A model generated the notes under the pieces. That model made no database searches. It was given only the letters and a program-made list of their open reading frames with translations, and was not told the DNA's origin. A program made the translations under genes and the position numbers. 64,000 nt of DNA from Natrarchaeobaculum aegyptiacum (GTDB taxonomy: Archaea; Halobacteriota; Halobacteria; Halobacteriales; Natrialbaceae): positions 2,976,001 through 3,040,000 of the forward strand of contig NZ_CP019893.1 in the NCBI RefSeq assembly GCF_002156705.1, read 5' to 3'. Of the stretch, positions 71-36,732 are shown in pieces (position 1 is the stretch's first letter; each line of letters opens with the position of its first letter).

Positions 71-997
71 ATGCAGGTTTCCGTCGTCGTCTGTACGTAC
101 GCACCCGAACGCTACGATGACTTCGTCGAGGCCGTCGAGAGCGTCCTCGAACAGACCTACGATTCGCTCGAGGTCGTACTCGTCGTCGACGGGACCGAAG
201 AGGTCTACGAGCAGGTACAGTCGGATTTTGGAGCCCTGGAGAACGTCGTCACACACTGTAACGACGAGAATCGGGGCGTGTCCGCCAGTCGGACGACAGG
301 TGCCGAACTGGCGAGCGGTGACGTAGTCGCGTTTATCGACGACGACGCGATCGCCGAACCCAACTGGGCCGCGGAGTTGGTGGCGGTGTACGAGTCGACC
401 GATGCACTCGCAGTCGGTGGCCGAATGGTCGGGGAATGGCTCGCCGGCCGGCCGTGGTTCCTTCCTGAGGAGTTTTACTGGCTCGTCGGCGTGACCTATC
501 CCGGCTTCGCCGAGGACGGTGCAGAGGTGCGAAACACGTTCGAATCGAACATTTCGTTTCGTCGGGACGTCTTCCTCGAGCTCGGTGGATTCGACCCCGA
601 TCTGGGACCGACAGCCGACGAGTACAGTCACTCCGAAGGGGCCGAGATCGGTGCACGATTGCGGGCGACGTATGGTCGGGGAGTCGTCTATACCGCCGAC
701 GCGGTCGTTCGACACAAGGTCTTCGAACATCGGATTCAGTTCAGCTGGTTGTGCAAGCGAGCTTTCGAACAGGGACAGTCGAAACGAGCGATGGAACGAC
801 GGGACGCTGCGTCGGCTGGTGAAGAATACGGGTATCTGCGGATGCTGTTCACCCAGCATGTCCCGCGACGGATTCGACAACTATTGCAGTCGCCATCGAG
901 CGCTGCTGTGGTGCAGTTCCTGATGATGTTCGTCTTCACTTTGATCGTGGGTGTTGGGTACGTGCACAGCGCTGCAATGGCGTTTAGGGGTGAGTAA
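71..997 (+). CDS. GT2-family glycosyltransferase, AglG-like
   Basis: A family 2 (GT-A fold) glycosyltransferase of 308 aa. The N-terminus reads VSVVVCTYAPERY, the typical beta1 nucleotide-binding start, and the donor/metal motif FIDDDA follows at about residue 95. A hydrophobic C-terminal stretch (about residues 275-300) would anchor it to the membrane. The layout resembles Haloferax AglG/AglI, which add hexuronic acid to dolichol-phosphate-linked S-layer glycans. The substrate here is not known, so the Agl resemblance is a family statement. A TATA-like box sits 25-32 nt upstream, so transcription is probably leaderless. It opens the surface-glycan locus that extends to AglF. Confidence 0.85.
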   Translation: MQVSVVVCTYAPERYDDFVEAVESVLEQTYDSLEVVLVVDGTEEVYEQVQSDFGALENVVTHCNDENRGVSASRTTGAELASGDVVAFIDDDAIAEPNWAAELVAVYESTDALAVGGRMVGEWLAGRPWFLPEEFYWLVGVTYPGFAEDGAEVRNTFESNISFRRDVFLELGGFDPDLGPTADEYSHSEGAEIGARLRATYGRGVVYTADAVVRHKVFEHRIQFSWLCKRAFEQGQSKRAMERRDAASAGEEYGYLRMLFTQHVPRRIRQLLQSPSSAAVVQFLMMFVFTLIVGVGYVHSAAMAFRGE

Positions 998-1120
998 CTG
1001 TCCAATGCAGTGAGAACGACTGCTAGAGAGCCACCGGACACGAAAGCCATCTTCAGCGAGCTAATTTCGCGTGCATTCCAAAGCGGTACGTATTTTCGCT
1101 GCTGCACGAAACGAGATGCT

Positions 1121-2254
1121 ATGTCGGATATCGACGACGTCTGCGTCGTCACTCATCCGCTCGGATCCGCGAGCGACAGCCACGCTCGAACGCTTCTTGA
1201 CGTCATTTCAGCGATCACGTCGGTATCGCTCGTCGCCATCACAGTCTCCGCAGACTCGTCACTACGTGACGAGTATGAGTCCATCCAGATTTCTGAGGAG
1301 GGCACTGGTGGGAGCATTCCCGTAGCCGCGGCGCGGTTCCTCCTGTACCAGTTTCAGATGGCACGTGTTATCCGTCGCCGTCCCGAATCGACCGTGCTGT
1401 TTTTCGGCGTGACGTCGTATCTCCTCCCGATCATTGCAGCAAAAATTACGGGGAAGAAAGTCGTCCTCCAGCCCCGTGGAGACGTTCCACTCACATTGCG
1501 TCTCCAGTGGCAACAGCGTATGCCCAACGTCTTCGCGCGCACTCTGGCGGGATGTGTGTGGACACTCGAGTGGATTGGGTATCAATCGGCCGATGCCATC
1601 GTCACGTACACCCCGTCGATGGCCGAGGAACTGGGACTCGATCGATTCGACTACAAACTCTATCCTCACGGGGCAAGGTACGTAAATCTCGATCGGTTCT
1701 ATCCGCATCGTCCCTTCGAAGAGCGGGATCGCGTGGTCGGTTTCCTGGGTCGACTCGACGAAGAGAAAGGAATCCGGACACTCGCCGAGGTCGCGAAACG
1801 GCTACCAGACGACGTTACGTTCCGGTTTATCGGTGACGGAGCGCTTCGGGACTGGCTTGAGGCGGAACTCTCCGAGGAAATCACTTCAGGCCAGGTCGAA
1901 ATAACTGGCTGGGTCGACCACGATGCCGTTCCCGAAGAGTTGAGCCATCTCCGGTTGCTTGTGATGCCTTCCGCGCCTACTGAGGGACTACCAACAACGA
2001 TCCTCGAGGCGATGGCGTGTGGGACGCCGGTCTACGCGACGCCCGTCTCGGGTGTTCCGGACGTAGTTCGGGAGGGAGAGACGGGGTTTTTGATGGACGA
2101 AGTTGAACCTGCGGAAATTGCTGAAAGCATCACATCGATACTGGTCCGGGACGATCTCGATGGATTGAGCCATAATGCTCGAGTTATGATTGATGAGGAA
2201 TACAGTTTCGATGCTGCGGTTAAGCGATATCGAGTGATTCTGAGAGATGCTTAA
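1121..2254 (+). CDS. GT4-family glycosyltransferase
   Basis: A GT-B fold retaining glycosyltransferase (glycosyl transferases group 1) of 377 aa. The C-terminal donor domain has VVGFLGRLDEEKGIRTL at about residue 210 and the EX7E-like stretch PTEGLPTTILEAMACGTPV near residue 290, both classic for the family. It probably transfers a sugar from an NDP-sugar during surface glycan assembly on the cytoplasmic face. I chose the ATG at 1121 over a longer in-frame start at 1010 because MSDIDDVCVVTHPLG begins the first Rossmann strand and a TATA-like element (GTACGTATTTT) lies about 30 nt upstream. Confidence 0.85.
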   Translation: MSDIDDVCVVTHPLGSASDSHARTLLDVISAITSVSLVAITVSADSSLRDEYESIQISEEGTGGSIPVAAARFLLYQFQMARVIRRRPESTVLFFGVTSYLLPIIAAKITGKKVVLQPRGDVPLTLRLQWQQRMPNVFARTLAGCVWTLEWIGYQSADAIVTYTPSMAEELGLDRFDYKLYPHGARYVNLDRFYPHRPFEERDRVVGFLGRLDEEKGIRTLAEVAKRLPDDVTFRFIGDGALRDWLEAELSEEITSGQVEITGWVDHDAVPEELSHLRLLVMPSAPTEGLPTTILEAMACGTPVYATPVSGVPDVVREGETGFLMDEVEPAEIAESITSILVRDDLDGLSHNARVMIDEEYSFDAAVKRYRVILRDA

Positions 2255-2321
2255 AATGGATCTCACAGGGCGGCCAGTGAAATGAAAGATATTTACCACA
2301 CCGATATAATCAGTCGCCATA

Positions 2322-3296
2322 ATGACTGTCGTCGTTTTCGGGATTGACGCACTTGATCCGGATCTGGTCGATCCTGACCAACATCCCAACTTAACTCTAG
2401 AGACCCACGACCGGATTGAAACAATTAACAGTTCAGCCGGCGAACCGAGCACACATGAGCTCTGGCCGACGATTATTACAGGCCTTTCACCCGAAGAACA
2501 CGGCCTGAAACTCGACGACGGTGTAGCATGGGAAAATCCTGTACTAAACTTTGGCAGTACGGTCGCTGACTACTTTCTCCCGAAGTCCCTGCAAACGCGA
2601 ATCGGCGGCTGGCTCCTGACGAATACGGAGACCGATGCATTTCGAACGAACGTAACGTACTACGAGAAAAACGAGCTCTCGACAGTCTTCGACGGCTACG
2701 AGTCGAAAGCAATTGGGATTCCAAACTACGTTGTTAATCCCAATGAAGAAGATCGCGAACATCAATTACGACGACAAATGGGTGATCTGTTTGCACGTGA
2801 TGGTGACGCTATGGGTGGCCACACGTCGTCGGACCCGGATCAGTTCTACGAACTGTGTATGGAGATGTCGATGATTCGGCTCGCTCGTATCCGTCGGGCG
2901 CTCCGTAGTCGACAGCATGAACTCGTCTTTGGATATACGAGCGGCCTCGATCTGATCGGACACGTCAGCTACGATCGACCAGCATTACAAGGACGGGCGT
3001 ACGAAGAGCTAGACGAGTTCGTGGGGGAACTCGTTTCCGATCTAGACGAAAGCAACGAGCTCGTGTTAGTCAGCGACCACGGCCTTCAGGACGGCCTCCA
3101 CACCGAGGAAGCGATGGTTGCCGCGACTAAACCAGCAATGATCGAGAAAATCTCAAGCGTTCTCGACGTGTGTGAAGCGATAGAATTCGAGCTGGATCAT
3201 ACCGACCATACACCAACTCCACCAAGTGATCAGAGAACTAAATTAGGCGACTCAGACAAAGTCCGAGAACAACTCGAAGATCTCGGATATTTGTGA
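2322..3296 (+). CDS. Alkaline-phosphatase-superfamily phosphodiesterase/nucleotide pyrophosphatase-like protein
   Basis: A 324-aa protein with the AlkP-fold metal and nucleophile layout. VVVFGIDALDPDL at the N-terminus supplies the first metal Asp, SAGEPSTHELWPTIITG carries the likely Thr/Ser nucleophile, and LVSDHGLQDG gives the DHG motif near residue 250. Members hydrolyse phosphodiester or pyrophosphate bonds of nucleotide sugars and phospho-lipids. There is no signal peptide, so a cytoplasmic role is likely. Its place between glycosyltransferases and CDP-polyol transferase homologues suggests turnover or trimming of activated precursors. That is inference; the substrate is unknown. A TATA-like element (AGATATTTA) precedes the start by about 30 nt. 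Confidence 0.75.
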   Translation: MTVVVFGIDALDPDLVDPDQHPNLTLETHDRIETINSSAGEPSTHELWPTIITGLSPEEHGLKLDDGVAWENPVLNFGSTVADYFLPKSLQTRIGGWLLTNTETDAFRTNVTYYEKNELSTVFDGYESKAIGIPNYVVNPNEEDREHQLRRQMGDLFARDGDAMGGHTSSDPDQFYELCMEMSMIRLARIRRALRSRQHELVFGYTSGLDLIGHVSYDRPALQGRAYEELDEFVGELVSDLDESNELVLVSDHGLQDGLHTEEAMVAATKPAMIEKISSVLDVCEAIEFELDHTDHTPTPPSDQRTKLGDSDKVREQLEDLGYL

Positions 3297-3321
3297 TCGT
3301 TCAGAGTTACTCCATCGACGG

Positions 3322-4569
3322 TTATGTATATTGACTGTCTGGATCGCTTTCATCATCGCAAAACCCCGAAAAAGCCAGTACTTTCTCGACTGTCGACTCC
3401 TTCCAATTCGGCAAAAGCACGCGCCGAACGAACGATCGATCCTCACTAAACGTCTCATCACCAGCGAGACAGGTCTCGAGGTGCTCGAGAAACTCTTCTG
3501 CTGAATCGATGGTTTTGCCAGGAAAATATCGGTCGTAGTCGAATGCAATCCCACGCTGATCGACAAACTGTTCGTGGCGATCGGTAACAAAAATCACTGG
3601 TCGATCGAACGGGAGGAAATCCATGTAAATCGACGAATAATCAGTAACGAGCACGTCTACGTGAGCGAGCAGTTCTAGCGACGATGGCGACCTGTCCTGT
3701 CCGGCGTAGAAGATAGTCTCTCCATCGACGAACTTCTCGTAGATTCCACTATCTTCCTCGTTCGGGTGCATGCGGAGGAACAACCGAGCGTCTTGCTCGC
3801 GGAGAAAGGTTCGTAACTCTTCCAGTTCGAAGTTCTCGAAGGGAAACGGCGTCGACCGGTACGCACCGTCCTTGTGGGTCGGCGCATAGAGGATGGTATC
3901 GTGGTCCGTTTTGAGTTCTTCAACGTCGATTTCTTCAGGAGGTGGGGACGGATCATCGCTCAGAAGCTCTGCGATCCGGTCATACCGTGGATACCCGAGT
4001 GTCTCAAAGTGAGCGGGATGTCGCCCTTCGGCACTCGAGCGAAAGAACCGTTCCACGTCTGAGGCTACTGATTGTGCGTCAATCCCTGTGTATAGATACC
4101 AGTCGAGGACGGTATTCTTCACCCGTCCAAATAGCGAGGGAGAAGAGTTGTCATTGGCATGCCGCCGATAGGCTTTCGTGATTACACCGTGATAAAATAG
4201 CACACAGGTTCGGCGGTAATTTTGCCAGAATAACCGATATCCATGGAGGTGATGTGGGCCTTCAAGTACGACGAGTCGACAGGTTGCAAGTTTGAACAAG
4301 AATGAGAACGTGTCTGATTCGACAATCGTAACTTGATCATTGTATGGCGATTCAAGATCGTTGGTGGAAGTGTCCAGTTGATCTTCTTGTACACAAACGT
4401 AAATCTGACCGGCAGAGACTTCCGATAACCGGTCCAACAGAGGTTTGACATCAGCGTCAAGAATAGCATACTGGGTGCAAATCATCACGTCTGATCGTTT
4501 CTGACGTACGAATAGGTCAATGACTCCAAAAATGATACTTAAGCTAATACGTCTTAGATACTCGACCAT
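3322..4569 (-). CDS. CDP-glycerol/polyol phosphotransferase family protein (TagB/TagF-like)
   Basis: A 415-aa member of the CDP-glycerol glycerophosphotransferase family, which in bacteria polymerises or primes wall teichoic acids from CDP-glycerol or CDP-ribitol. Family landmarks are visible: an HG motif (FYHGVITKAY), YAPTHKDG, RMHPNEED, and the diagnostic VTDYSSIYMDFLPFDRPVIF near the C-terminus. I chose the ATG at 4569; an upstream TTG at 4599 would add ten residues. It is transcribed against its neighbours and converges with the phosphodiesterase gene. Base composition is AT-richer than the core genes. The donor is likely a CDP-activated group, which matters given the CTP-dependent cassette at 7.9-12.5 kb. 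Confidence 0.8.
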   Translation of the reverse strand: MVEYLRRISLSIIFGVIDLFVRQKRSDVMICTQYAILDADVKPLLDRLSEVSAGQIYVCVQEDQLDTSTNDLESPYNDQVTIVESDTFSFLFKLATCRLVVLEGPHHLHGYRLFWQNYRRTCVLFYHGVITKAYRRHANDNSSPSLFGRVKNTVLDWYLYTGIDAQSVASDVERFFRSSAEGRHPAHFETLGYPRYDRIAELLSDDPSPPPEEIDVEELKTDHDTILYAPTHKDGAYRSTPFPFENFELEELRTFLREQDARLFLRMHPNEEDSGIYEKFVDGETIFYAGQDRSPSSLELLAHVDVLVTDYSSIYMDFLPFDRPVIFVTDRHEQFVDQRGIAFDYDRYFPGKTIDSAEEFLEHLETCLAGDETFSEDRSFVRRVLLPNWKESTVEKVLAFSGFCDDESDPDSQYT

Positions 4570-5035
4570 CACTGCTTGGTATGACTCAGAGTCGTTCAAG
4601 TACTTCGATTCAATGATGGTGTTTATCCCATCCGGCTCTATTCGCTAATAAATTATAATACCTGATACTCTAATGAGTGTCGTGAAAGTCCGGGGAACGG
4701 CCATGGTATATCCGACACGAAACTACGCCTATCTTATTTATGAGGATTGATGATCTGGTCGCCGGATATTAGGTCAGTAGCGAGCGGACTCCCCTCCAGT
4801 CACTAGCAGCATTTTAGCTAGCGTCACGACAGCCCTGGCAAAGCGGAAAGTTTAGACGTAATTCATCCACCGTTTCTTGCTACCCGGGATTTTTGCATCA
4901 GGCCAGCACAATCTTTTGATTCACCAGAGATCTATACGACACTTCTTATTTAGCTACGGCCGAATAATCTCAACAGCTCTACAGCGAAGCACTGTCGTTG
5001 AATATAAGCCCTCGAGATGCGATCCTCAAAGTACT
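4570..5035. other. Intergenic region between two divergent TagF-like genes
   Basis: About 466 nt without a supportable gene. It is AT-rich and must hold both divergent promoters. GAATATAAGCC at about 5000-5010 is a good TATA candidate for the gene starting at 5036. No repeat or RNA structure stood out. Confidence 0.5.
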
Positions 5036-6367
5036 ATGACTAATCCCCTGCTACGTGCGTATTATATCTCAAAGAATGAAGGGTTACGCTCATTGTTTCG
5101 CAAGAGCGTCGATTTTCTTCTAACACCTGTTCCATCTATCGATAATTTAAAATTTGCTGTTAAAGACCGGACCGGGGACTATCCCTGCGATAGAACGATT
5201 ATGGTAACTCTTCGTCAATCGATGTTTGACTCGGATACGTTATCCGTCGTTGTCCAATCTGTCAAGAGATCTGATATTGATACAGTATTCTTACTGGTTT
5301 CGTCGGAGAGTAAATTCATCTCCTCGAATAAATACGCCCTCGAAAGCATCACGGGGTCTGATACTGAGGTGAAAATAATCGAGGAAGGCTCTAGCCACCT
5401 TCCGAGTGCCGTTGCTCAATCACAGTTCATCTTCATCCGGAACGGTCCAGAACTCGCTGGCTACCGGTTTGTTAATACGAATTCGGAACGCAAGTTTGTG
5501 CGGATATTCCATGGTTTTGCTAAAGCAAGTGGTGGGTTCAGAGAACGAAACGCAGAAAGCGGGGCAGTGAGCACTGTTAGGCTTCCACGCCGATTCCGCC
5601 CTATTGACATATATCCTGTTGCGAGTGATGTCGAACTTTTCTATCGATCTGCAGCAGAAGGCATTCACCCGGCTCAGGTGAAAAAATGCAGCTACCCGAA
5701 ATACACTCGGCTTAAACGGCTACGGACTGGAAAAGATTCCCCCATTCTGCCAGAAAAGACAAAAGAATCACTCGGTAATGATGGTTGTAAATCCCGTATT
5801 CTGTATGCGCCTACTCATAAAGGAACTTACGAACCGACAGAGTTATTCCCGTTTTCCGATTTCGATCTTCAAGTGCTGCGGGAGCAGCTCGAGTCGTTAG
5901 ATGTTGTCCTTTATATTAGAATGCATATTCATGAAGAACAAGCGGGCATTTACGACGAATATATTGACGGCGACATAATAAAATATGCTGGACACGGATT
6001 CTCTCCCTCAGCGGCCGAAATCCTTCCCGAATTTGATGTGCTCATAACGGATTATTCGTCAATATACACGGAGTATTTGGCACTAGATAGACCAATTTTA
6101 TTCATCATTGACGACACGAATCCCTACTGGACTAACAAAGGCCTTGCTTTCGATGATGAAAAGTATACTCCTGGTCCTAAGATATCCGACTTTGAAGACT
6201 TCTTGCTAGAACTAGAAAACCACATCACTGATCAATCCAGATATTGTCGTGAACGAGAATTTGCGATAAATTCACTCGTACCTGATCGAGATATCGATTT
6301 CCTTGATTGCATACTCGACAACTGTATAGAGGGAAAACCAAATCGCAGTAGAGATATTGTCCAGTAG
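5036..6367 (+). CDS. CDP-glycerol/polyol phosphotransferase family protein (TagB/TagF-like), second copy
   Basis: A 443-aa homologue of the neighbouring TagF-like protein. Shared landmarks are the HG motif in IFHGFAKASGG, YAPTHKGTYE, RMHIHEEQAG (the usual RxHP has become RMHI) and ITDYSSIYTEYLALDRPILF. I chose the ATG at 5036 over an in-frame start 159 nt earlier because a TATA-like GAATATAAGCC lies about 30 nt before it and the 53 extra residues look non-coding. It is divergently arranged with the first copy. Having two copies suggests a primer/polymerase division of labour or different acceptors, as in teichoic acid systems (inference). Markedly AT-rich codon use suggests recent acquisition. 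Confidence 0.8.
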   Translation: MTNPLLRAYYISKNEGLRSLFRKSVDFLLTPVPSIDNLKFAVKDRTGDYPCDRTIMVTLRQSMFDSDTLSVVVQSVKRSDIDTVFLLVSSESKFISSNKYALESITGSDTEVKIIEEGSSHLPSAVAQSQFIFIRNGPELAGYRFVNTNSERKFVRIFHGFAKASGGFRERNAESGAVSTVRLPRRFRPIDIYPVASDVELFYRSAAEGIHPAQVKKCSYPKYTRLKRLRTGKDSPILPEKTKESLGNDGCKSRILYAPTHKGTYEPTELFPFSDFDLQVLREQLESLDVVLYIRMHIHEEQAGIYDEYIDGDIIKYAGHGFSPSAAEILPEFDVLITDYSSIYTEYLALDRPILFIIDDTNPYWTNKGLAFDDEKYTPGPKISDFEDFLLELENHITDQSRYCREREFAINSLVPDRDIDFLDCILDNCIEGKPNRSRDIVQ

Positions 6368-6394
6368 GTCCTCGGAAAGATACGCTCTGCACTT

Positions 6395-7855
6395 ATGAAT
6401 ATTGGACAGACATCACTGATCGTCTTTCTCTCAAAATTGGCAGGGTCCGCGTTAGGATTCATCGCAACGATTTACTTTGCTCGAGTGCTCGGAGCGGAAG
6501 TTCTCGGAATCTATGCTGTGATCATGTCGACTGTTGCTTGGTTGCAAACAGGCGGCAAAATGGGGATCGCGAAAGCGACGAATAAGCGTATTAGCGAAGG
6601 GGAAGACCGTGGAAAGTTCCTGGTTGCAGGAATAGTTTCCCTGGTATTGTTTATTACTGCTATTTCTCTTGTGGCTATTGCAGCAACGCCATTTATTGAA
6701 TCGTATCTCAGTGATTTTGAGAATTACTCTCAAACATCGGTGGTCTACTTCATATTGCTGTTGTTGGCTATTAAGTTAGTGTTCATATTCGTGCTGGAGG
6801 TCTTGAGGGGGCTGCATATGGTGCATATCGCTGGACCTCTAAAACCAGTCAAAACCGCCACCCAGAGCATTATTCAGTTGGCACTTGTTTTTGCGGGTTT
6901 GGGTCTTATCGGAATGCTGTTAGGATATTTTATCGGGGCAATTATTGTGCTGCTGGTTGCCGGAGTCTTCCTCAAAATCCGCCCAGCGAATCCGACTTCT
7001 ACTCATTACCAGTCTCTTCTTAACTATGCGAAGTTCTCCTGGCTCGGTGGACTAAAATCACGGGCACTAAACGATGTGGACATACTAATTCTCAATGCGA
7101 TGGTCGCCACCGGGTTAGTTGGGATTTATTCCGTCGTCTGGAGTCTTTCGAAGTTCCTCGACCTGTTCAGCAGTGCCATTGGGGAAACAGTGTTCCCAGA
7201 GATAAGTAAAATCAGTAAACAGCAGGAAATTGGTGAAGTAAAATTACTTATCGAAGATGCCGTTGCATACGCCGGCTTGATTACGATTCCGGGTCTAGTT
7301 GGTGGTGTCGTGATTTCCGATCGGCTGTTGCAGATTTATGGCCCGGAGTTCGTCCAAGGTGTAGAAATCCTCTGGATGTTGCTTCTAGCGGTCCTCTTTT
7401 TCAGCTATTATCGGCAATTTCTCAATGCGCTTAATGCTCTTGATTTCCCAAACTTGGCATTTTTTTCTAACATCGTGTTTGTAGTGTCTAATATCGTCCT
7501 GAATGTGATATTGATCTGGAGATTTGGCTGGATCGGTGCAGCAGTGGCAAGCACCCTTTCGATATTGATCGGACTGGTAGCGTCGTATCTCTTACTCATA
7601 CGAATTGTTACAATTGAAATCCCGGCGAACGAGATTGGACGTCAATTAGTTGCTGCTATTGCAATGGGTGCAATCGTGGCCATTACTCGGGGAACGATTG
7701 AATCAGCGGGCCTAATTGAAAATAATACCATTATCGTGCTGGGGCTCGTTTCACTTGGCACTATTGTTTATACGGCGACCTTGTATCAGATATCTCCGAA
7801 ATTCCAGACGACAGTCGAACGGAATATCCCCTTCAACGTACCATTCCGACAGTAA
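6395..7855 (+). CDS. Wzx-type oligosaccharide flippase (polysaccharide biosynthesis/MOP superfamily)
   Basis: A 486-aa integral membrane protein of the MOP exporter superfamily. About 14 hydrophobic segments run through the whole length. The N-terminus (IGQTSLIVFLSKLAGSALGF followed by IYFARVLGAEVLGIY) is the classic flippase start with the YFAR-LG signature. Such proteins translocate lipid-linked glycans to the outer face of the membrane. It lies 27 nt downstream of the second TagF-like gene on the same strand, so the two are probably cotranscribed. AglR-type flippases of haloarchaea belong to the same superfamily. The glycan carried is unknown. Confidence 0.88.
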   Translation: MNIGQTSLIVFLSKLAGSALGFIATIYFARVLGAEVLGIYAVIMSTVAWLQTGGKMGIAKATNKRISEGEDRGKFLVAGIVSLVLFITAISLVAIAATPFIESYLSDFENYSQTSVVYFILLLLAIKLVFIFVLEVLRGLHMVHIAGPLKPVKTATQSIIQLALVFAGLGLIGMLLGYFIGAIIVLLVAGVFLKIRPANPTSTHYQSLLNYAKFSWLGGLKSRALNDVDILILNAMVATGLVGIYSVVWSLSKFLDLFSSAIGETVFPEISKISKQQEIGEVKLLIEDAVAYAGLITIPGLVGGVVISDRLLQIYGPEFVQGVEILWMLLLAVLFFSYYRQFLNALNALDFPNLAFFSNIVFVVSNIVLNVILIWRFGWIGAAVASTLSILIGLVASYLLLIRIVTIEIPANEIGRQLVAAIAMGAIVAITRGTIESAGLIENNTIIVLGLVSLGTIVYTATLYQISPKFQTTVERNIPFNVPFRQ

Positions 7856-7917
7856 CTTCAGAAAGTGTTTCCAACGGATACTGTACAATCAGAAGCTGTT
7901 ACGATTATTGATCCACA

Positions 7918-7932
7918 ATTGATATATATGAT
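7918..7932 (+). promoter_or_regulatory. TATA box of the phosphoramidate operon
   Basis: GATATATATG lies about 23-33 nt before the ATG at 7953. It is the only promoter-like element before the three coupled genes, which have no gaps between them. Confidence 0.5.
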
Positions 7933-7952
7933 GGAGCGAAATCACCGTCAAT

Positions 7953-10900
7953 ATGACCTCGCCCCTTGTGGTATTCTTAGGTGCCGGCCGTCCCTTCTCC
8001 GGCACCGAACCATCTGCACTCCGCCACACAGCTGGCGACCGTCGAGTCCTCGACTGGCTCATCGATGCCTTCACCTCTGAACTCGAGTCCCCCGAACTCC
8101 ACTTCGTCGGTGGCTACCGCCTCGAGGAGATCGTGGAGGAATATCCAGAGATCCACTTCTCGAGAAACGAAGACTGGGAAGACACAGGGACTCTTGGGTC
8201 TCTCCTCGAGGCGCCCCTCCAGAGCGACCGCCCTACCTACGTCTGTTATGCCGACGTGGTCTTCCAGGCGGACGTCGTCGACCGACTCGAGCAAGCTACT
8301 GCCGACGCCGCCATTGCAGTCGACGAACGATGGCGAACGCGCTACAGTGCTCGATCGGACGAGAGTCGCGAACGCGCCGAAAAAGTTCGATACGAAGGAG
8401 ACCATATCGACCGCATTTCGAGCACGCTCGAGCCCGCCTCGGCCGATGCGGAGTTCACGGGGCTGGCACGGTTCTCCCCGGCTGCGATCGAGTTCCTGTT
8501 CGATATCGTCGACCGTGGTCTCCTCGGTCCGGAGAACGCCCTCCCGGATCTCGTGACGGCGCTCTCGCTGGCCGGAATCGACCCGCACCCAGTCGACGTC
8601 GACGGACACTGGGCTGAACTCGAGACCGCGGCGGATCTCGCCCGGTTCGTCCTCGATACGAAAGCCAATACTCTCAAACGACTCGAGTCGATGGTCACCG
8701 AGAGTACGATCGCACCGCAATATACGTTCACGGTCGAGGAGTTCGCGACCGACCCGGCGACAATCTTGGCAGACATCCGCGAGGCATTCGACGTCGAGGT
8801 GATCGTTCGCTCGAGCACGCTCGCGGAGGACGGCTGGGAGCATTCGAACGCCGGTCGGTTCGAGAGCATCCTCGACGTCCGGCTCGAGGACGAGGCGCTT
8901 ACGGACGCGATCGAGACGGTGATCGACTCCTACGACGACAACCCGGACAACCAGGTCCTGGTCCAGCCGATGGTGGAAGACGTCGCCGCGAGCGGTGTGG
9001 CGATGACGCGCACCGTCGAGGGAGGAAGTCCGTACTACGTGATCAACTACGACGCGGCGACGGGGAGCACGGTGACCGTCACGGACGGCACCGGCGACGA
9101 GATTCGGACCGTCGTCGTCCGCAAGGACGCGGTGTCGTCGTTCGCGAGCGACGTTCCAGCATCCGACGATGACTCGACCCCCTCGCTCACCTCCGACGGT
9201 GGAACGGTCGCCCGACTCGAGGGCGACTCCACGATCGCCGGTGATCCGGCGCTCCGGCTCCCGTCGGTGCTCCGGGCGATCGACGAACTCGAGTCGGTCG
9301 TCGGGCACGACGGGCTCGACGTCGAGTTCGCGGTCACTGACGACGGCGAGGTGTACGTCCTCCAGGTGCGACCGATGACCGTGGACGCGGGCGAGCGGTC
9401 GGTCGACGACGACGCCGTCGTGCGGGCCGTCGAGGCGGCCCGCGAAACATTCTGCGAGAGCCAGCGATCGTCGCCGTTCGTCCTCGGCGACCGGACGATC
9501 TTCGGGGTGATGCCGGACTGGAACCCGGCCGAGATAATCGGTCGCAGTCCGCGCCCACTCGCGGAATCGCTGTACCGATACCTGATCATGGACGAGGTAT
9601 GGGCGACCCAACGCGCGGAGTTCGGGTATCGAGACGTCCGCCCGCAGCCGCTGATGCAAACCTTCGCCGGCCAGCCGTTCGTCGACGTCCGCGCGGATTT
9701 CAACTCCTTCGTCCCCGCGAGCGTCTCCGACGAACTGGCCGCGAAACTCGTCGACTACTACCTGACCCGACTCGAGGACCGCCCGGAACTCCACGACAAG
9801 ATCGAGTTCGAAATCGCGCTGACGTGCCTCCCGTTCGATTTCGAGTACCGGGCCGAACCGCTCCGGGAGGCGGGCTTCGACGACGACGAACTCGCGGAGC
9901 TTCGCGAGGGACTCGGAGAGATCACCCGCGGGGCGTTCGACCGCGTCGAGAGCGGGCGTGATATCGCGGCCGTCGAGGCGCTCGAGGACCGGTACGAACG
10001 GCTTCGCGAAGCCGACCTCCCTGACCTCGAGGCCGCTCGGCGGTTGCTCGAGGACTGTCGGCGGCTCGGAACGTTACCGTTCGCCCACCTCGCGCGGTCG
10101 GCGTTCGTCGCCGTCTCGCTGTTACGATCGCTCGAGCGCAAGAACGTCCTGAGCGACGACGACGTCTCGAGATTCCACAACTCGCTGTCGACGGTCGCCC
10201 GCGAATTCGAACTGGACGGCTACCGCGTCGACACTGGCGACCTCGCGTTCGAGGAGTTCGTCGACACGTACGGCCACCTCCGGCCGGGAACGTACGACCT
10301 GACGTCGCCGCGGTACGCGACCGATCCCGACGACTACCTTCGGCCGACCGTCGAAGCAGCGACCGCGCCCGGAGACCATCCCGACCCGCGGGACGTCTGG
10401 GACGAAGATACGAAAGCCGAGATCGAACGCGAACTCGAGGCGATCGGGCTCCCAGCGGAGTGCGAGCGCTTCGTGACGTTCCTCGAAGAGGCCATCGAGG
10501 GACGGGAGTATTCGAAGTTCGTCTTCAGCAAGAACCTGAGCGAGGCGCTCGAGCGGATCGCAGCCTTCGGCGACGGGAACGGGTTCGACCGCGAGGAACT
10601 CTCCTACGTCCCCATAGAGGAGTATCTCGAGCTGACGACCAGTCCGCCGGCCGAGGATCTCGAGACGTGGCTCGAGCGGCGGATCGACGAGGGTCGCGGG
10701 CGGCACGCGATCGCCCGTGCCGTCGAGTTGCCGCCGTTGCTCTGTGACGACGCTGACTTCCTGTGTTTCGAGCGACCGGCGCGGGAGCCGAACTTCGTGA
10801 CGACCGAGATGGTTCGGGCGGAACTCGCTGAGCCCGACCTCGAACCGGACGTCGACCTCGACGGGAGGATCGTGATGATCCCGCAGGCCGATCCCGGCTA

Positions 10901-11096
10901 CGACTGGCTGTTCGGATACGACGTCGAGGGATTGATCACGATGTACGGCGGGACGAACTCTCACATGGCGATCAGAGCCGCCGAGTTCGAACTGCCTGCG
11001 GCGATTGGCGTCGGCGAGTCGCTGTACGAAAAGCTCAGTGGCGCGTCAGTGGTTGAACTGGATTGCGAAGCAAACACCGTCGAGACGATTCGATGA
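7953..11096 (+). CDS. NTP-transferase-like domain fused to PEP-synthase-like L-glutamine kinase (Cj1418-like)
   Basis: A 1047-aa protein. Residues 1 to about 235 resemble a nucleotidyltransferase fold with a weak GxG motif (FLGAGRPFSG). Residues about 255-470 form an ATP-grasp domain like that of PEP synthase (VRSST at 285-289, then HSNAGRFESIL). Residue 520 begins MPDWNPAEIIGRSPRPLAES, a block characteristic of C. jejuni Cj1418-type L-glutamine kinases. The C-terminus is the phosphohistidine domain with MYGGTNSHMAIRA, His1004 being the expected phosphorylated residue. Cj1418 phosphorylates the amide nitrogen of L-glutamine using ATP, releasing AMP and phosphate. The stop overlaps the next start as ATGA. 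The family assignment rests on recalled motifs; substrate identity is inference strengthened by the two following genes. Confidence 0.8.
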   Translation: MTSPLVVFLGAGRPFSGTEPSALRHTAGDRRVLDWLIDAFTSELESPELHFVGGYRLEEIVEEYPEIHFSRNEDWEDTGTLGSLLEAPLQSDRPTYVCYADVVFQADVVDRLEQATADAAIAVDERWRTRYSARSDESRERAEKVRYEGDHIDRISSTLEPASADAEFTGLARFSPAAIEFLFDIVDRGLLGPENALPDLVTALSLAGIDPHPVDVDGHWAELETAADLARFVLDTKANTLKRLESMVTESTIAPQYTFTVEEFATDPATILADIREAFDVEVIVRSSTLAEDGWEHSNAGRFESILDVRLEDEALTDAIETVIDSYDDNPDNQVLVQPMVEDVAASGVAMTRTVEGGSPYYVINYDAATGSTVTVTDGTGDEIRTVVVRKDAVSSFASDVPASDDDSTPSLTSDGGTVARLEGDSTIAGDPALRLPSVLRAIDELESVVGHDGLDVEFAVTDDGEVYVLQVRPMTVDAGERSVDDDAVVRAVEAARETFCESQRSSPFVLGDRTIFGVMPDWNPAEIIGRSPRPLAESLYRYLIMDEVWATQRAEFGYRDVRPQPLMQTFAGQPFVDVRADFNSFVPASVSDELAAKLVDYYLTRLEDRPELHDKIEFEIALTCLPFDFEYRAEPLREAGFDDDELAELREGLGEITRGAFDRVESGRDIAAVEALEDRYERLREADLPDLEAARRLLEDCRRLGTLPFAHLARSAFVAVSLLRSLERKNVLSDDDVSRFHNSLSTVAREFELDGYRVDTGDLAFEEFVDTYGHLRPGTYDLTSPRYATDPDDYLRPTVEAATAPGDHPDPRDVWDEDTKAEIERELEAIGLPAECERFVTFLEEAIEGREYSKFVFSKNLSEALERIAAFGDGNGFDREELSYVPIEEYLELTTSPPAEDLETWLERRIDEGRGRHAIARAVELPPLLCDDADFLCFERPAREPNFVTTEMVRAELAEPDLEPDVDLDGRIVMIPQADPGYDWLFGYDVEGLITMYGGTNSHMAIRAAEFELPAAIGVGESLYEKLSGASVVELDCEANTVETIR

Positions 11097-11749
11097 CTCG
11101 GCCCCGAATCGGACTCACCCAGCGCGTCTACGAGGTCGAGGCCTACGAGGAGCGACGCGACTGTCTCGATCAGCGGTGGGGACCGTTCGTACAGTCGTTC
11201 GGCCTCGACCCAGTCCCGCTTCCGAACCGGGTCGAGGACGTTGCAGGCTACGTCGATCGGCTCGAACTGGACGGCGTCGTCGTCACCGGTGGCAACGACT
11301 TCGCTCACCTCGAGGACGGGACGAACGTCGCTCCGGAGCGCGACGAGTTCGAGCGGACGCTCCTCGAGGCCGCGATCGATCGCAACCTCCCAGTCCTTGG
11401 CGTCTGCCGCGGGTTGCAGCTACTCAACCTCCACTTCGGCGGTTCGCTTCGCGACGTCGACGGACACGTCGCGAAAGAACACGAACTCGAGGTGGATCCG
11501 AACGCGACGGCCCTCGAAGACGTCCCCCGGACCATCCCGGTCAACAGCTACCATGGGTATGGCATCGGCGAGGACGACCTGGGCGACGGCCTGCGCGTCT
11601 GTGGGCACGTTTCGGACGGGACGATAGAGTGGGTCGAACACGACCGCTATCCCATCACGGGGATCATGTGGCATCCCGAACGCGAGTCACCATCGTCCGG
11701 GCTGGATCGGCGCATTATTAGGTCGCGTCTCCCAACCGAAACTGTATGA
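11093..11749 (+). CDS. Class I glutamine-amidotransferase-fold hydrolase, gamma-glutamyl-CDP-amidate hydrolase-like (Cj1417-like)
   Basis: A 218-aa peptidase C26/GATase1-fold protein. The nucleophile elbow is VLGVCRGLQLLN with Cys105, and GIMWHPERE supplies His194 and Glu196 to complete the triad. VTGGNDFAHL near residue 64 is the expected glycine-rich loop. In C. jejuni, Cj1417 removes glutamate from CDP-L-glutamine to give cytidine diphosphoramidate. A generic gamma-glutamyl-GABA hydrolase annotation would also fit the fold, but the setting argues otherwise: the gene overlaps the glutamine-kinase gene (ATGA at 11093) and the cytidylyltransferase gene (ATGA at 11746). The start at 11093 is supported by this coupling and by the conserved beginning TRPRIGLTQRVYEVE. 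Confidence 0.8.
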   Translation: MTRPRIGLTQRVYEVEAYEERRDCLDQRWGPFVQSFGLDPVPLPNRVEDVAGYVDRLELDGVVVTGGNDFAHLEDGTNVAPERDEFERTLLEAAIDRNLPVLGVCRGLQLLNLHFGGSLRDVDGHVAKEHELEVDPNATALEDVPRTIPVNSYHGYGIGEDDLGDGLRVCGHVSDGTIEWVEHDRYPITGIMWHPERESPSSGLDRRIIRSRLPTETV

Positions 11750-12525
11750 GCACGGGGACGACGGCCATCCACCTCGCTGCCGGCGAGGGGACGCGACTCA
11801 GGCCGCTGACGAACGATCGACCCAAGCCCCTCGTAGAACTCGGCGGTACCTCGCTGCTCGAGCGAAACGTCGAGACGCTCGAGCGTGCTGGCGTCGAGAA
11901 CCAGATCGTGGTCACGGGCCACGAGGGTGACCAAATTAGGGATCTCGGCCTCGAGACAGTCCACAACGGGGTATACGACGAAACGGAGATGGTATACAGT
12001 CTGTTCAGGGCCGCAGACGAGTTCCCTGAGGAGGGAGCCGGCGACCTCATCATCTCCTACGGCGATATCGTCTACGAACGGGCGATCGTCGAGGAACTGC
12101 TGGCCTGTGACGCCCCGATGTGCATTGTCGTCGACCGCGAGTGGCGAGCCCTGTGGAACGCCCGGTTCGACGACCCGCTCGAGGACGCAGAAACCCTCTC
12201 GCTCGATGGCGAAGGCCGAATTCGTTCGATCGGAGACACCCCCTCTGGCTACGACGACATCGACGCCCAGTACACCGGCCTCCTCAAAGTGCGGAACGAT
12301 CACGTCGAGCCCCTGATCGACGTCTACCGCGATCTGGACGATCAGCAGGACGGCTACGTCTCGGTCGACACGACCGCGTTCCTCCAGGGGTTGATCGACG
12401 ACGACTGGCACCTCCAGGCCGTCCCGGTCGACGGCGGGTGGCTCGAGGTGGACACCCTGTCCGACCTCGAGCACTATCGCCAGCGATACGAGGATGGGTC
12501 TCTCGACGAGTTCATCTCGCTGTGA
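11746..12525 (+). CDS. Nucleotidyltransferase, probable CTP:phosphoglutamine cytidylyltransferase (Cj1416/LicC-like)
   Basis: A 259-aa NTP transferase. The N-terminal signature HLAAGEGTRLRPLTNDRPKP binds the nucleotide. EMVYSLF near residue 82 and ISYGDIVYE near residue 103 are typical of phosphocholine or phosphoglutamine cytidylyltransferases rather than sugar nucleotidylyltransferases. VDREWRALWNARFDDPLEDA and a C-terminal WLEVDTLSDLEHY complete the pattern. In C. jejuni, Cj1416 makes CDP-L-glutamine from CTP and L-glutamine phosphate. The gene overlaps its predecessor by ATGA and is last in the three-gene operon. Phosphocholine activation is the main alternative, but it would not explain the kinase and hydrolase partners. 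Confidence 0.78.
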   Translation: MSTGTTAIHLAAGEGTRLRPLTNDRPKPLVELGGTSLLERNVETLERAGVENQIVVTGHEGDQIRDLGLETVHNGVYDETEMVYSLFRAADEFPEEGAGDLIISYGDIVYERAIVEELLACDAPMCIVVDREWRALWNARFDDPLEDAETLSLDGEGRIRSIGDTPSGYDDIDAQYTGLLKVRNDHVEPLIDVYRDLDDQQDGYVSVDTTAFLQGLIDDDWHLQAVPVDGGWLEVDTLSDLEHYRQRYEDGSLDEFISL

Positions 12526-33456: not shown

Positions 33457-36400
33457 ATGGCTGCCGAGGACGAACGGAGACTTCGGGAGAGGGGAACCGG
33501 TCGCGACGAAGCGGCTGACGATACCGGTGAGTGGGTGCTCGAGGGGCCGTCAGCACCCACGCCAGACGCCGCAGCCGCGGATCTGGCGAGTGACCTCGCG
33601 GACTCCTGTCGCGGCGACGTCAGGTTCGACGAGTACACGCGCGTGCTCTACGCGACCGACGGCAGCATCTACAGCGCCCAGCCAGCCGGTGTCGTCTTCC
33701 CGCGAGACGTCGACGACGTGCAGGCTGCAGTCCGGGTCGCCTCGGCACACGACGTCCCCGTCCTCCCGCGTGGGGCAGGCTCCTCGCTCGCCGGACAGGC
33801 CGTCGGCCCCGGTTGCGTGGTACTCGACCTCTCGAAGCATATGGACTCGGTTCTCGAGGTCGACACCGATGCCCGACTCGCTCGAGTACAGCCGGGAGTC
33901 GTTCAGGACGACCTCGACGCGGTGCTCGAGCCCCACGGGCTGAAGTTCGCCCCGGACCCGGCGTCGTCGAACCGGGCGACCGTCGGCGGTGGGATCGGTA
34001 ACAACTCGACGGGTGCCCACTCGGTGCGGTACGGGATCACCGACGCCTACACCGAGGAGCTTCGGGTGGTGCTCCCGAACGGCGAGGTGATCCACACCCG
34101 CGAGGTCGTCCTCGACGGGCCGGAGTACGACGAGATCGTCGAGGCAGACACTCGCGAGGCGGCGATCTATCGGACGGTCAGGCAACTGGTCGAGGAGAAC
34201 CACGATGAGATCGACGAGCGCTACCCGGACCTGAAACGGCGAGTGACCGGCTACAACCTCGATCGGGTGATCTACGAACGTGCAGACGGCGAGCGGGTGA
34301 TCAACCTCTCGAAGCTCCTCGTCGGTGCGGAGGGAACCCTCGGCGTCGTCGTGGAGGCCACCGTCTCGCTGGTCACCCGTCCCGGAGAAACCGCGCTCGC
34401 GCTCTACTGTTTCCCCGAACTGCAGGCGGCCCTCCGGGCGGTCCCCGAAGCGCTCGAGTACCCCGTCAGCGCGGTCGAATTGATGGACGAGGAGGTCTTC
34501 CGACTCGCCCGGGAGTCAGACGGCTACGCCCAGTACGCCGAGCCCATCCCGGAGGAGACTGCGGCAGCGCTGCTGCTCGAGTGGGACGACGAACTCGTTT
34601 CTGGTACCGAGGACGGTGACGACGACGGCCACACCCAACGGGCGGCCTTCGAGGCTGCCGTCGCGGAGACGACCGCCCACTTCGTCGACGACGGCGACGC
34701 GTTCGAGGTGCTCGAAGCCTACACCGAATCGGCACAGGCTGATCTCTGGAACCTCCGGAAGGCCGCGATCCCCCTGCTCATGAGCCTCGAGGGCGATCCG
34801 AAGCCGTACCCGTTCATCGAGGACGCGACAGTCCCTCCCGAGGAACTCGCCGCCTACGTCGCGGACTTCGAGGCGGTGCTCGAAGATCACGACACGGAGG
34901 CTGCGTACTTCGCGCACGCGGGTTCGGGAACGCTCCACATCCGGCCAATCCTGAACCTCAAATCCGGGTCTGGCGTCGAGGCCATGCGGTCGATCACCGA
35001 CGACGTGACCGACCTCGTCCTCGAGCGCGGGGGCTCGTTCTCGGGCGAACACGGCGACGGGATGGCCCGGACGGAGTTTACTCCCAAGATGTACGGCGAG
35101 GACCTCTGGGAGGCTTTCAAGCGAGTGAAAACCGCATTCGATCCCGACTGGCTCATGCACCCGGGGAACGTCGTCTACCGCGACGGTCCCGGGGACGTCG
35201 GTCCGGACTCCGAGCGCGGCGTCGGCGCTGACGTGCGCGACCACCTGCGATACGGGCCGAGCTATAGCTCGCTCGAGCCCCAGACGACCCTCGATTTCGA
35301 GCCGGAGGGCGGCTTCTCGCACCTCGTGGAACTCTGTAACGGCTGTGGCACCTGTCGGCAGCGCGACGGCGACGTGATGTGTCCGACCTACCGGGCGAGC
35401 GACGAAGAGATCGAGACCACGCGCGGGCGGGCGAACCTCCTGCGAGCGGCCATCAGCGGCGATCTTTCGCCGGAAGAACGCCACAGCGAACAGTTCCAGA
35501 CCGCGGTGCTCGACCACTGCATCGGCTGCAAGGGCTGCCAGCGGGACTGCCCGACCGGCGTCGACCTCGCGAAGCTCAAAGCCGAGGTGAAACACCCGTA
35601 CCACGAGCGCGAGGGCGTCACGCTTCGCGAGCGACTCTTCGCCGATATCGATCGGTTCGCGGCGATCGGCAGCACCCTCGCACCGGTCGCGAACCGCCTC
35701 CCGCAGGTTCCGGGAGCACGGTCCCTCCTCGAGCGGACCGTCGGAATCGCTGCCGAGCGAAGCCTTCCCACGTTCCACCGGGAGTCGCTGGTCGAATGGT
35801 TCGAGTCGCGAGGCGCCGACGGCGCCTCGAAAACGCGAGCGGCAGCGCCGCGGGCGAAGCGCGGCCCGCAGGTCGACGCCGACGAAGCCGATCTCGGAGT
35901 CGTTCTCGTTCCGGACACCGATACGAACTACTCGAATCCCGATCGTGGAAAGGCCGCCGTCGCGTTGCTCGAGGCGGCGAACGTCCACGTGCGCGTGCCG
36001 GACCTCGGTCCGACAGGCCGGGCGGCCTACTCACAGGGACTGCTCGAGACAGCCCGCGAGCAAGGGGAAGCGTTCCTCGATGACTGTGAGCCGTTCCTCG
36101 AGCGCGGCTGGTCGATCCTGTTCGTCGAACCGAGCGACGGGGCGATGGTGCTCGACGAATACAGTTCGCTCCTCGACGTCGACGACAGTGACCTCGAGCG
36201 CCTTCAGACGAACACGTTCGGCGTTTGTGAGTACGTCGACGAGCACGGTCTCGACGGCTGTTTCGCCTACGACCGCGAGGCCGCTGCCCGGACGCCGCTG
36301 GTCTATCACGGCCACTGCCACGAGACGGCCCGCGGTGCGGAGGGCCACGCCATCTCGGTACTCGAGCGGGCAGGCTACGACGTCACGCCGGTCGACTCGA

Positions 36401-36732
36401 CCTGCTGTGGGATGGCCGGCAGCTTCGGGTACGAGGCCGAACACTACGACCTCTCGCGGGAGATCGGGCGTCTCCTCCGCGACCAGCTCGTCGGCGCGAC
36501 GACCGGGAACTCGAGTGAGCGAGCACCGACTGGTGGTTCCTACGCTGGCGACGAATCGAAATACGACGCCGATAGGAGCCCCGGGCCCGTCGTCGACGAC
36601 GGCGCTGACGCTGTTGTCGACGCGACAGTCGTCGCCACCGGCACCTCCTGTCGGACCCAGATCGGAGACTTCGACGGATTCGACGACCCGCTCCATCCGG
36701 TCGAGGCGCTCGTGGCCGTCCTCGAGGACTGA
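33457..36732 (+). CDS. FAD-linked and iron-sulfur dehydrogenase (D-lactate/glycolate/2-hydroxyglutarate type)
   Basis: A 1091-aa fused enzyme. The N-terminal FAD-binding domain (FAD_binding_4) shows PRGAGSSLAGQAVG and TVGGGIGNNSTGAHS. The FAD-oxidase C-terminal domain contains FSGEHGDGMARTEF. A ferredoxin-like region has CNGCGTCRQRDGDVMCPTY and CIGCKGCQRDCPTG, binding two 4Fe-4S clusters. The end carries CCG-type motifs, including CCGMAGSFGYEAEHYDLSRE. Proteins of this layout (YdiJ or Dld type) oxidise D-2-hydroxy acids and pass electrons to the respiratory chain. D-lactate is the commonest assignment in haloarchaea, but sequence alone does not settle the substrate. Confidence 0.85.
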   Translation: MAAEDERRLRERGTGRDEAADDTGEWVLEGPSAPTPDAAAADLASDLADSCRGDVRFDEYTRVLYATDGSIYSAQPAGVVFPRDVDDVQAAVRVASAHDVPVLPRGAGSSLAGQAVGPGCVVLDLSKHMDSVLEVDTDARLARVQPGVVQDDLDAVLEPHGLKFAPDPASSNRATVGGGIGNNSTGAHSVRYGITDAYTEELRVVLPNGEVIHTREVVLDGPEYDEIVEADTREAAIYRTVRQLVEENHDEIDERYPDLKRRVTGYNLDRVIYERADGERVINLSKLLVGAEGTLGVVVEATVSLVTRPGETALALYCFPELQAALRAVPEALEYPVSAVELMDEEVFRLARESDGYAQYAEPIPEETAAALLLEWDDELVSGTEDGDDDGHTQRAAFEAAVAETTAHFVDDGDAFEVLEAYTESAQADLWNLRKAAIPLLMSLEGDPKPYPFIEDATVPPEELAAYVADFEAVLEDHDTEAAYFAHAGSGTLHIRPILNLKSGSGVEAMRSITDDVTDLVLERGGSFSGEHGDGMARTEFTPKMYGEDLWEAFKRVKTAFDPDWLMHPGNVVYRDGPGDVGPDSERGVGADVRDHLRYGPSYSSLEPQTTLDFEPEGGFSHLVELCNGCGTCRQRDGDVMCPTYRASDEEIETTRGRANLLRAAISGDLSPEERHSEQFQTAVLDHCIGCKGCQRDCPTGVDLAKLKAEVKHPYHEREGVTLRERLFADIDRFAAIGSTLAPVANRLPQVPGARSLLERTVGIAAERSLPTFHRESLVEWFESRGADGASKTRAAAPRAKRGPQVDADEADLGVVLVPDTDTNYSNPDRGKAAVALLEAANVHVRVPDLGPTGRAAYSQGLLETAREQGEAFLDDCEPFLERGWSILFVEPSDGAMVLDEYSSLLDVDDSDLERLQTNTFGVCEYVDEHGLDGCFAYDREAAARTPLVYHGHCHETARGAEGHAISVLERAGYDVTPVDSTCCGMAGSFGYEAEHYDLSREIGRLLRDQLVGATTGNSSERAPTGGSYAGDESKYDADRSPGPVVDDGADAVVDATVVATGTSCRTQIGDFDGFDDPLHPVEALVAVLED

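Follow-up and report, generated by a model that had tools for sequence, protein, structure and literature searches.

Phosphoramidate marks are known as decorations of the Campylobacter capsule and of a few other surface glycans. Could a haloarchaeon make one too? Three coupled genes of Natrarchaeobaculum aegyptiacum raise this question. They lie in the 64,000-nucleotide stretch that we analyzed (hereafter the window; positions 2976001 to 3040000 of a single-contig 3.93-Mb genome). A first-pass annotation, made from the DNA letters, had read them as a Cj1418-like glutamine kinase, a Cj1417-like hydrolase and a Cj1416-like cytidylyltransferase joined by ATGA overlaps. We verified the open reading frames and both junctions (11093-11096 and 11746-11749):

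7953-11096, forward strand: predicted L-glutamine kinase of 1047 amino acids, with a Cj1418-type catalytic part and an extra N-terminal domain (NF004508; phospho-His1004 codon at 10962-10964).
11093-11749, forward strand: class I glutamine-amidotransferase-like C26 hydrolase, Cj1417-type, 218 amino acids from the ATG at 11093 (NF045546; PF07722).
11746-12525, forward strand: CTP:phosphoglutamine cytidylyltransferase-like enzyme, Cj1416-type, 259 amino acids (assigned from tree, fold and invariant residues).

The GC content at third codon positions (GC3) of the trio is 0.76 to 0.82, and its codon-position GC and acidic composition are typical of genuine haloarchaeal genes. In Campylobacter jejuni, Cj1415 to Cj1418 turn L-Gln, ATP and CTP into CDP-phosphoramidate 3'-phosphate (PMC11800397). 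By homology to the steps of that characterized pathway, we consider it highly probable that the haloarchaeal trio makes cytidine diphosphoramidate (CDP-NH2). Following the C. jejuni biochemistry, the kinase product would be L-glutamine phosphate, the 11746-12525 enzyme would combine this with CTP to give CDP-L-glutamine, and the C26 hydrolase would remove L-glutamate to leave CDP-NH2.

The kinase matched NF004508 over its full length with 896.6 bits (cutoff, 501), and phosphoenolpyruvate (PEP) synthase models gave at most 57 bits. It has a PPDK_N (ATP-grasp) domain and a PEP-utilizers (phosphohistidine) domain with the catalytic His. That residue, His1004 in YGGTNSHMAIR, had already been named as the phosphohistidine and does not vary in family alignments that span haloarchaea, bacteria and Campylobacterales. 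The MPDWNPAEIIG block, taken at first pass to be Cj1418-like, is identical in the Campylobacter-type kinase and is kept almost throughout the family, with D522 only nearly invariant. As yardsticks we searched Campylobacterales genomes with NF045546, and five were over its cutoff. No locus was labelled C. jejuni, so loci L122 and L124 served as stand-ins, being over the cutoff and having a cj1413-cj1423-like order. They carry one or two proteins of about 610 amino acids, methyltransferases, the kinase, the hydrolase, the cytidylyltransferase, an adenosine phosphosulfate (APS) kinase-like gene and two further capsule genes, an arrangement that we take to be that of cj1413-cj1423. The window kinase and the L124 kinase are 34% identical over 769 columns (pairwise E=4e-153). 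Judged by sequence, the kinase is a member of the Cj1418-type family and far closer to it than to any PEP synthase.

The hydrolase found its best family in NF045546 (gamma-glutamyl-CDP-amidate hydrolase) with 125.8 bits, and the next families scored about 56 bits. Cys105, His194 and Glu196, counted from the ATG at 11093 and proposed from the outset as its triad, are likewise invariant in the haloarchaeal, bacterial and Campylobacterales sequences aligned. The protein is 31% identical to the L124 hydrolase (pairwise E=1e-37), and the motifs around the triad are kept.

Family databases gave only generic matches for the 11746-12525 enzyme, and we therefore turned to trees and folds for its identity. 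G13, G15, R17, K27, D107 and D236 are invariant, giving an intact G-x-G-x-R, Lys and two-Asp signature. The EMVYSLF and YGDIVY segments, earlier called Cj1416-like motifs, align with the T-N-M-V-x-(S/T)-L-F and SY(G/A)DIVY of its relatives. Identity to the L124 enzyme is 34% (pairwise E=2e-51). A nucleotidyltransferase tree of 113 rows placed it together with all five Campylobacterales enzymes in a starred clade of 54 rows. All 92 trio enzymes lay on one side of a split (support 80), and the 11 sugar-type nucleotidyltransferases from these loci, two of them from the window, lay outside. The predicted structure (mean predicted local distance difference test score [pLDDT] 95.1) had the phosphonate cytidylyltransferase PntC (6pd2) as its best Foldseek match (E 2e-18), and the nearest solved sequence by profile was LicC. 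PntC and LicC act on 2-aminoethylphosphonate and phosphocholine, respectively, whereas the window enzyme falls among the Cj1416-type enzymes of trio loci.

Taken together, the trio and its L124 counterpart share order, coupling and full-length homology at 31 to 34% identity, a likeness that, to judge from these alignments, is not due to chance. Generic Pfam labels would allow three ordinary neighbors, namely a dikinase resembling PEP synthase, a PuuD-like hydrolase and a sugar nucleotidyltransferase. We regard this as very improbable: the phylogenetic comparison proposed at first pass has now been made, scores and tree contradict these identities, and the linkage described below holds across phyla.

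How often do the three genes travel together? Among 391 Halobacteria genomes, the kinase occurred in eight (seven over the cutoff and one relic, in genome G129) and the complete trio in seven, and all seven intact loci had the order kinase, hydrolase, cytidylyltransferase. The hydrolase family (E<1e-25) was present in five of the 391, each of them kinase-bearing, with the two genes directly adjacent. Scanning named genomes, we obtained at least 546 relatives spread over many phyla; we kept the best 80 loci, picked by similarity to the window-type alignment, and the long class of kinase described below is over-represented among them. Both partners lay in the flank of 87 of the 91 kinase loci with downstream room, most of them bacterial. 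Kinase and hydrolase were adjacent in 81 of these, and the full order was adjacent in 72. Natural fusions join the cytidylyltransferase, the N-terminal domain and the kinase (L057, 8992-12927), an APS kinase and the kinase (L132, 8566-11499), and TagD-like PF01467 domains and the kinase (L019, L137 and L138). Such Rosetta-stone fusions support a shared pathway. Scores, tree and linkage thus bear out the predicted glutamine kinase, hydrolase and cytidylyltransferase assignments.

Two relatives of the kinase were found in other settings. A solitary one, without hydrolase or cytidylyltransferase, lies on the Cupriavidus taiwanensis symbiosis plasmid (L143, NZ_CP016951.1, 7791-13358) near a thiamine pyrophosphate enzyme and an aminotransferase, beside nif genes. 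A full-length relative with 32% identity occurs in a 9.5-kb record labelled as a human-faeces bacteriophage (MT837632.1, 673-3006), which may be a mislabelled bacterial contig.

In the kinase tree, the long kinases form a 66-row clade that includes the window's six-row haloarchaeal clade, and the Campylobacterales kinases fall in a separate 21-row short clade (both with support 100, a fasttree support to be taken with care). The haloarchaeal clade is nested among bacteria. Haloarchaea appear to have acquired the system at least three times, in the main clade, in Haloferax elongans (L078) and in genome G285 (L019).

The window kinase departs from the Campylobacterales architecture of about 775 amino acids, which lacks an N-terminal extension. 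The first-pass annotation was right about its Cj1418-like character and missed this extra part, which Cj1418-type kinases do not have:

7953-8651, forward strand: degenerate cytidylyltransferase-fold domain, amino acids 1 to 233 of the kinase (predicted structure, Foldseek and residue mapping).

A sequence search of the domain alone against the PDB gave no match, and only the fold search succeeded. The model has a nucleotidyltransferase fold (mean pLDDT 94.4), with CTP:inositol-1-phosphate cytidylyltransferase (4mnd/2xme) as the best Foldseek match (E 2e-12) and PntC also near. We mapped its residues by aligning it with the active cytidylyltransferases encoded in the operons that carry it. It retains their D107 (as D101), D130 (D124), W133 (W127), R140 (R134), E149 (E143), G178 (G170), W232 (W220) and E234 (E222). 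The G15-x-R17-L18 loop, part of the G-x-G-x-R triphosphate loop, is deleted, and T22, K27 (now S or A) and D236 (now N or E) are lost. These losses, which hold in the family, rule out an active second cytidylyltransferase. We infer a ligand-binding, noncatalytic domain, a dead cytidylyltransferase paralogue, which would probably bind L-glutamine phosphate or its CDP adduct and hand it between active sites. In three loci a TagD-like PF01467 cytidylyltransferase domain fills the same slot (L019, 8582-11467; L137, 7425-10223; L138, 2837-5614), and the glutamine kinase of L136 (8077-11031) has an N-terminal stretch of about 195 amino acids matching no Pfam family.

What might be done with CDP-NH2? 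The genes on the other side of the kinase are those of a glycan locus:

71-997, forward strand: AglG-type glycosyltransferase of N-glycosylation (NF041394, 493.9 bits, cutoff 440).
1010-2254, forward strand: glycosyltransferase of family GT4 (PF00534, 1.4e-32).
2322-3296, forward strand: alkaline-phosphatase-superfamily phosphodiesterase/transferase adjoining a PF04464 gene (PF01663, 4.2e-14; conserved pairing).
3322-4599, reverse strand: PF04464 (TagF-like) transferase of a trio-linked subfamily, candidate phosphoramidate transferase (PF04464, 4.4e-36, 125 bits, cutoff 22.1).
4877-6367, forward strand: second PF04464 transferase, also of this subfamily and likewise a candidate phosphoramidate transferase (PF04464, 4.4e-31, 108.6 bits, cutoff 22.1).
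6395-7855, forward strand: MurJ/Wzx-type polysaccharide flippase, 97 bp before the kinase (PF01943, 2.9e-16).

Just upstream of the window lie a further PF04464 protein and, a few kilobases before the window start, an AglB-type oligosaccharyltransferase (TIGR04154, 813.8 bits). This AglB-anchored N-glycosylation locus makes an N-glycan the likeliest acceptor, and from gene position the acceptor is likely to be a lipid-linked or protein-linked one. Relatives of the flippase occur near the trio in L017, L018 and L028. The glycan locus is bracketed, at a spacing of about 50 kb, by two proteins of about 1,090 amino acids that share 46% identity (window 33457-36732 and L014 2949-6209).

PF04464 proteins number exactly three in the genome (at genome positions 2974831, 2979421 and 2981354); each lies no more than about 10 kb upstream of the trio, and two are in the window. 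The PF04464 His pair is invariant or nearly so: His137 and His278 are conserved in the 3322-4599 protein, as are Asp320 and Ser322, and His212 and His350 in the 4877-6367 protein. From what we know of TagF, the conserved histidines presumably have catalytic roles. PF04464 proteins occur in 61 of the 391 Halobacteria genomes and are mostly of a strong, TarF-like type. The weaker subfamily to which both window proteins belong (E 1e-29 to 1e-40) was confined in Halobacteria to G000, G308, G285 and G128, four trio genomes in each of which it sits beside the trio, and to G303. This is four of eight kinase-bearing genomes versus one of 383 others, for which P=3.6e-7 is optimistic, the subfamily having been bounded by score after the list was seen. 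In bacteria, a PF04464-like gene directly followed the cytidylyltransferase in 19 of 70 loci, and RefSeq annotates a four-gene run of trio plus PF04464 on a Vibrio alfacsensis plasmid. We had also considered that every trio has a PF04464 partner and rejected this, because the flanks of several trios hold none, and one trio in Agrobacterium has a CDP-alcohol phosphatidyltransferase instead.

Several trio loci hold other neighbors. On the Agrobacterium vitis plasmid NZ_AP023281.1 (L144, 5529-12844), the trio is followed by a LysE exporter and the CDP-alcohol phosphatidyltransferase, and the opposite strand carries an aminoacyl-tRNA-ligase-like gene and a TauD dioxygenase; the set resembles a cluster for a small-molecule phosphoramidate more than one for a capsule. 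On the V. alfacsensis plasmid (L127, 5481-7886), cysDN sulfate adenylyltransferase genes diverge from the trio operon. A formyltransferase-like PF00551 protein (cluster 4, e.g., L050 15080-15946) recurs beside the trio and PF04464 genes in 35 bacterial trio loci, sometimes as a 450-amino-acid form with an extra part, and is absent from the window.

Is the mark methylated, as in Campylobacter? Counting loci whose two flanks each extended at least 4 kb, we found an APS-kinase (Cj1415-like) gene near three of 50 long kinases versus 19 of 26 other kinases (P=1.8e-9) and Cj1419/1420-like methyltransferases near two of 50 versus 18 of 26. PF04464-like genes went the other way by kinase type (32 of 50 versus five of 26) and were present in 34 of 54 loci without an APS kinase versus three of 22 with one (P=1e-4). 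The family splits in two, a Campylobacter-like branch with 3'-kinase and methyltransferases and a branch of many phyla with long kinases and PF04464. Few independent contrasts exist on the tree, so these counts overstate independence: for APS kinase versus PF04464 there were six, of which on average 3.7 were opposite and 0 the same. The Campylobacterales locus L125 (5441-10436), an O-methyl phosphoramidate (MeOPN)-type locus with methyltransferases, has no APS kinase in its flank and carries PF04464-like genes, one of them inside the trio; it is intermediate between the two branches.

The first-pass annotation had seen no Cj1415-like kinase or methyltransferase in the window and had suggested that the end product may differ from O-methyl phosphoramidate. 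The absence of the kinase holds genome-wide, where the sole APS-kinase (PF01583) match is a 24-bit P-loop fragment in a 428-amino-acid frame. A profile of cluster 20 detected no Cj1419/1420-type methyltransferase in the window, and the window proteins from 71 to 12525 gave no match to a DUF2972 (Cj1421-like) transferase. With neither 3'-kinase in the genome nor such a methyltransferase in the window, the suspicion is strengthened. Neither 3'-phosphorylation nor methylation would be expected, and the final product is probably an unmethylated phosphoramidate. An O-methyl mark completed by unlinked or unrecognized enzymes would go against these absences and seems improbable to us; in its favor, an APS-kinase-like gene overlaps the end of the trio operon in H. 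elongans (L020/L078), and haloarchaea can therefore hold the four-gene Campylobacter-type set. The anticorrelation of domain and APS kinase also led us to consider the N-terminal domain as a substitute for the Cj1415 kinase, which we rejected because its fold is that of a nucleotidyltransferase, not a kinase, and the anticorrelation is mostly one deep split.

Overall, we favor with reasonable confidence an explanation in which the trio makes CDP-NH2 and PF04464 transfer places an unmethylated mark on an N-glycan. For the transfer itself we make a more tentative proposal, that the 3322-4599 or the 4877-6367 protein moves phosphoramidate from CDP-NH2 to a sugar hydroxyl, with release of CMP. The hydroxyl would be on the glycan built by the AglB-anchored locus. 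It is gene context that points to direct use of CDP-NH2 by PF04464 enzymes, to the lack of 3'-phosphate and methyl group, to the N-glycan acceptor and to the role of the N-terminal domain.

Several observations weigh against this explanation. The anticorrelation between N-terminal domain and APS kinase rests largely on that deep split, with two or three independent pairs on the tree. The usual donors of PF04464 enzymes are CDP-glycerol and CDP-ribitol, PF04464 genes occur in 56 Halobacteria genomes that lack the kinase, and the complete haloarchaeal trios L018, L027 and L028 have no PF04464 gene in the flank searched (in genome G098, the source of L018, one lies about 13 kb away). The phosphodiesterase, PF04464 and flippase genes (2322-7855) are poor in GC3 (0.42 to 0.54, versus about 0.8 for the trio and core genes), which suggests their more recent arrival; with a host-like trio and AT-rich PF04464 genes, the two blocks may have arrived separately. 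Finally, the hydrolase score is under the strict NF045546 cutoff of 250.

The PF04464 proteins could be unrelated CDP-polyol phosphotransferases, with another enzyme, such as the 2322-3296 protein or an unlinked transferase, moving the phosphoramidate made by the trio. The 2322-3296 gene has a 66% identical copy in trio locus L019, there too beside a PF04464 gene, and its protein weakly matches the CMP-phosphonoformate transferase PhpG (E 0.0055); the Agrobacterium pairing would fit as well. We think this version rather unlikely, given that the trio-linked PF04464 subfamily is almost confined to trio genomes and that no glycerol-3-phosphate cytidylyltransferase (CDP-glycerol synthase) over cutoff emerged from a family search with the genome's strongest PF01467 protein (best, TIGR01518, 42.7 bits; cutoff, 165). 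The other PF01467 proteins of the genome are NMN/CoA-type by eye.

The hydrolase score bears on another version, in which CDP-glutamine or L-glutamine phosphate is the end or a branch point of the pathway, giving a different N-phosphorylated product, and the C26 protein acts on another gamma-glutamyl bond. The N-terminal domain, resembling a ligand-binding cytidylyltransferase, could accept a different substrate. NF045546 is nonetheless by far the best family for the hydrolase, its triad and nearby motifs are shared with the Campylobacter-type enzyme, and the adjacency of kinase and hydrolase is widespread, so we hold such a branch to be quite unlikely. Production of CDP-NH2 and its transfer by a PF04464 enzyme remain our preferred account.

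Compared with the C. jejuni O-methyl phosphoramidate capsule pathway, the window has a full-length homologous trio in the same order with catalytic residues kept. It differs in the 233-amino-acid kinase domain, in a genome without the Cj1415 3'-kinase, in the lack of Cj1419/1420-type methyltransferase and DUF2972 among the genes examined, and in its PF04464 enzymes and archaeal N-glycosylation setting. With the CDP-glycerol/ribitol phosphotransferases TagF, TarF and TarL, the window proteins share the PF04464 fold family, two conserved His, Asp and Ser, but they form a distinct trio-linked subfamily with weak Pfam and TarF/TarL scores and a proposed donor of CDP-NH2. The lipooligosaccharide of Xanthomonas campestris bears a phosphoramide substituent not described as methylated (PMC8042644); the group on a surface glycan is alike, but there the glycan is bacterial lipopolysaccharide. 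A 2025 paper predicted an O-methyl phosphoramidate cluster in archaeal Borg elements, likewise with a structure-based CTP:phosphoglutamine cytidylyltransferase prediction in an archaeal glycan region (PMC12660748). Phosphorus-nitrogen (P-N) chemistry in archaeal glycan loci is therefore not an entirely new idea. The Borgs are extrachromosomal elements of methanotrophic archaea with a methylated mark predicted, whereas the window holds a chromosomal haloarchaeal operon with a long-class kinase and PF04464. The literature searched held no description of a phosphoramidate on an archaeal glycan. New here are the degenerate N-terminal domain of the kinase, the rarity of the 3'-kinase with the long class, the PF04464 association and the AglB-anchored locus.

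In the public records examined, genes of the long-kinase branch bear no labels other than PEP-utilizing enzyme, C26 hydrolase and phosphocholine cytidylyltransferase. A bolder and more doubtful extension is that they form a widespread second P-N branch, in which long-form kinases would channel labile phosphoglutamine and TagF-like enzymes would use CDP-NH2 directly, placing unmethylated phosphoramidate on bacterial polymers and haloarchaeal S-layer N-glycans. For N. aegyptiacum itself, a complete, coupled trio in an archaeal N-glycosylation locus means that Archaea, too, may have P-N glycan chemistry, and the surrounding genes offer a concrete candidate for the transferase class.

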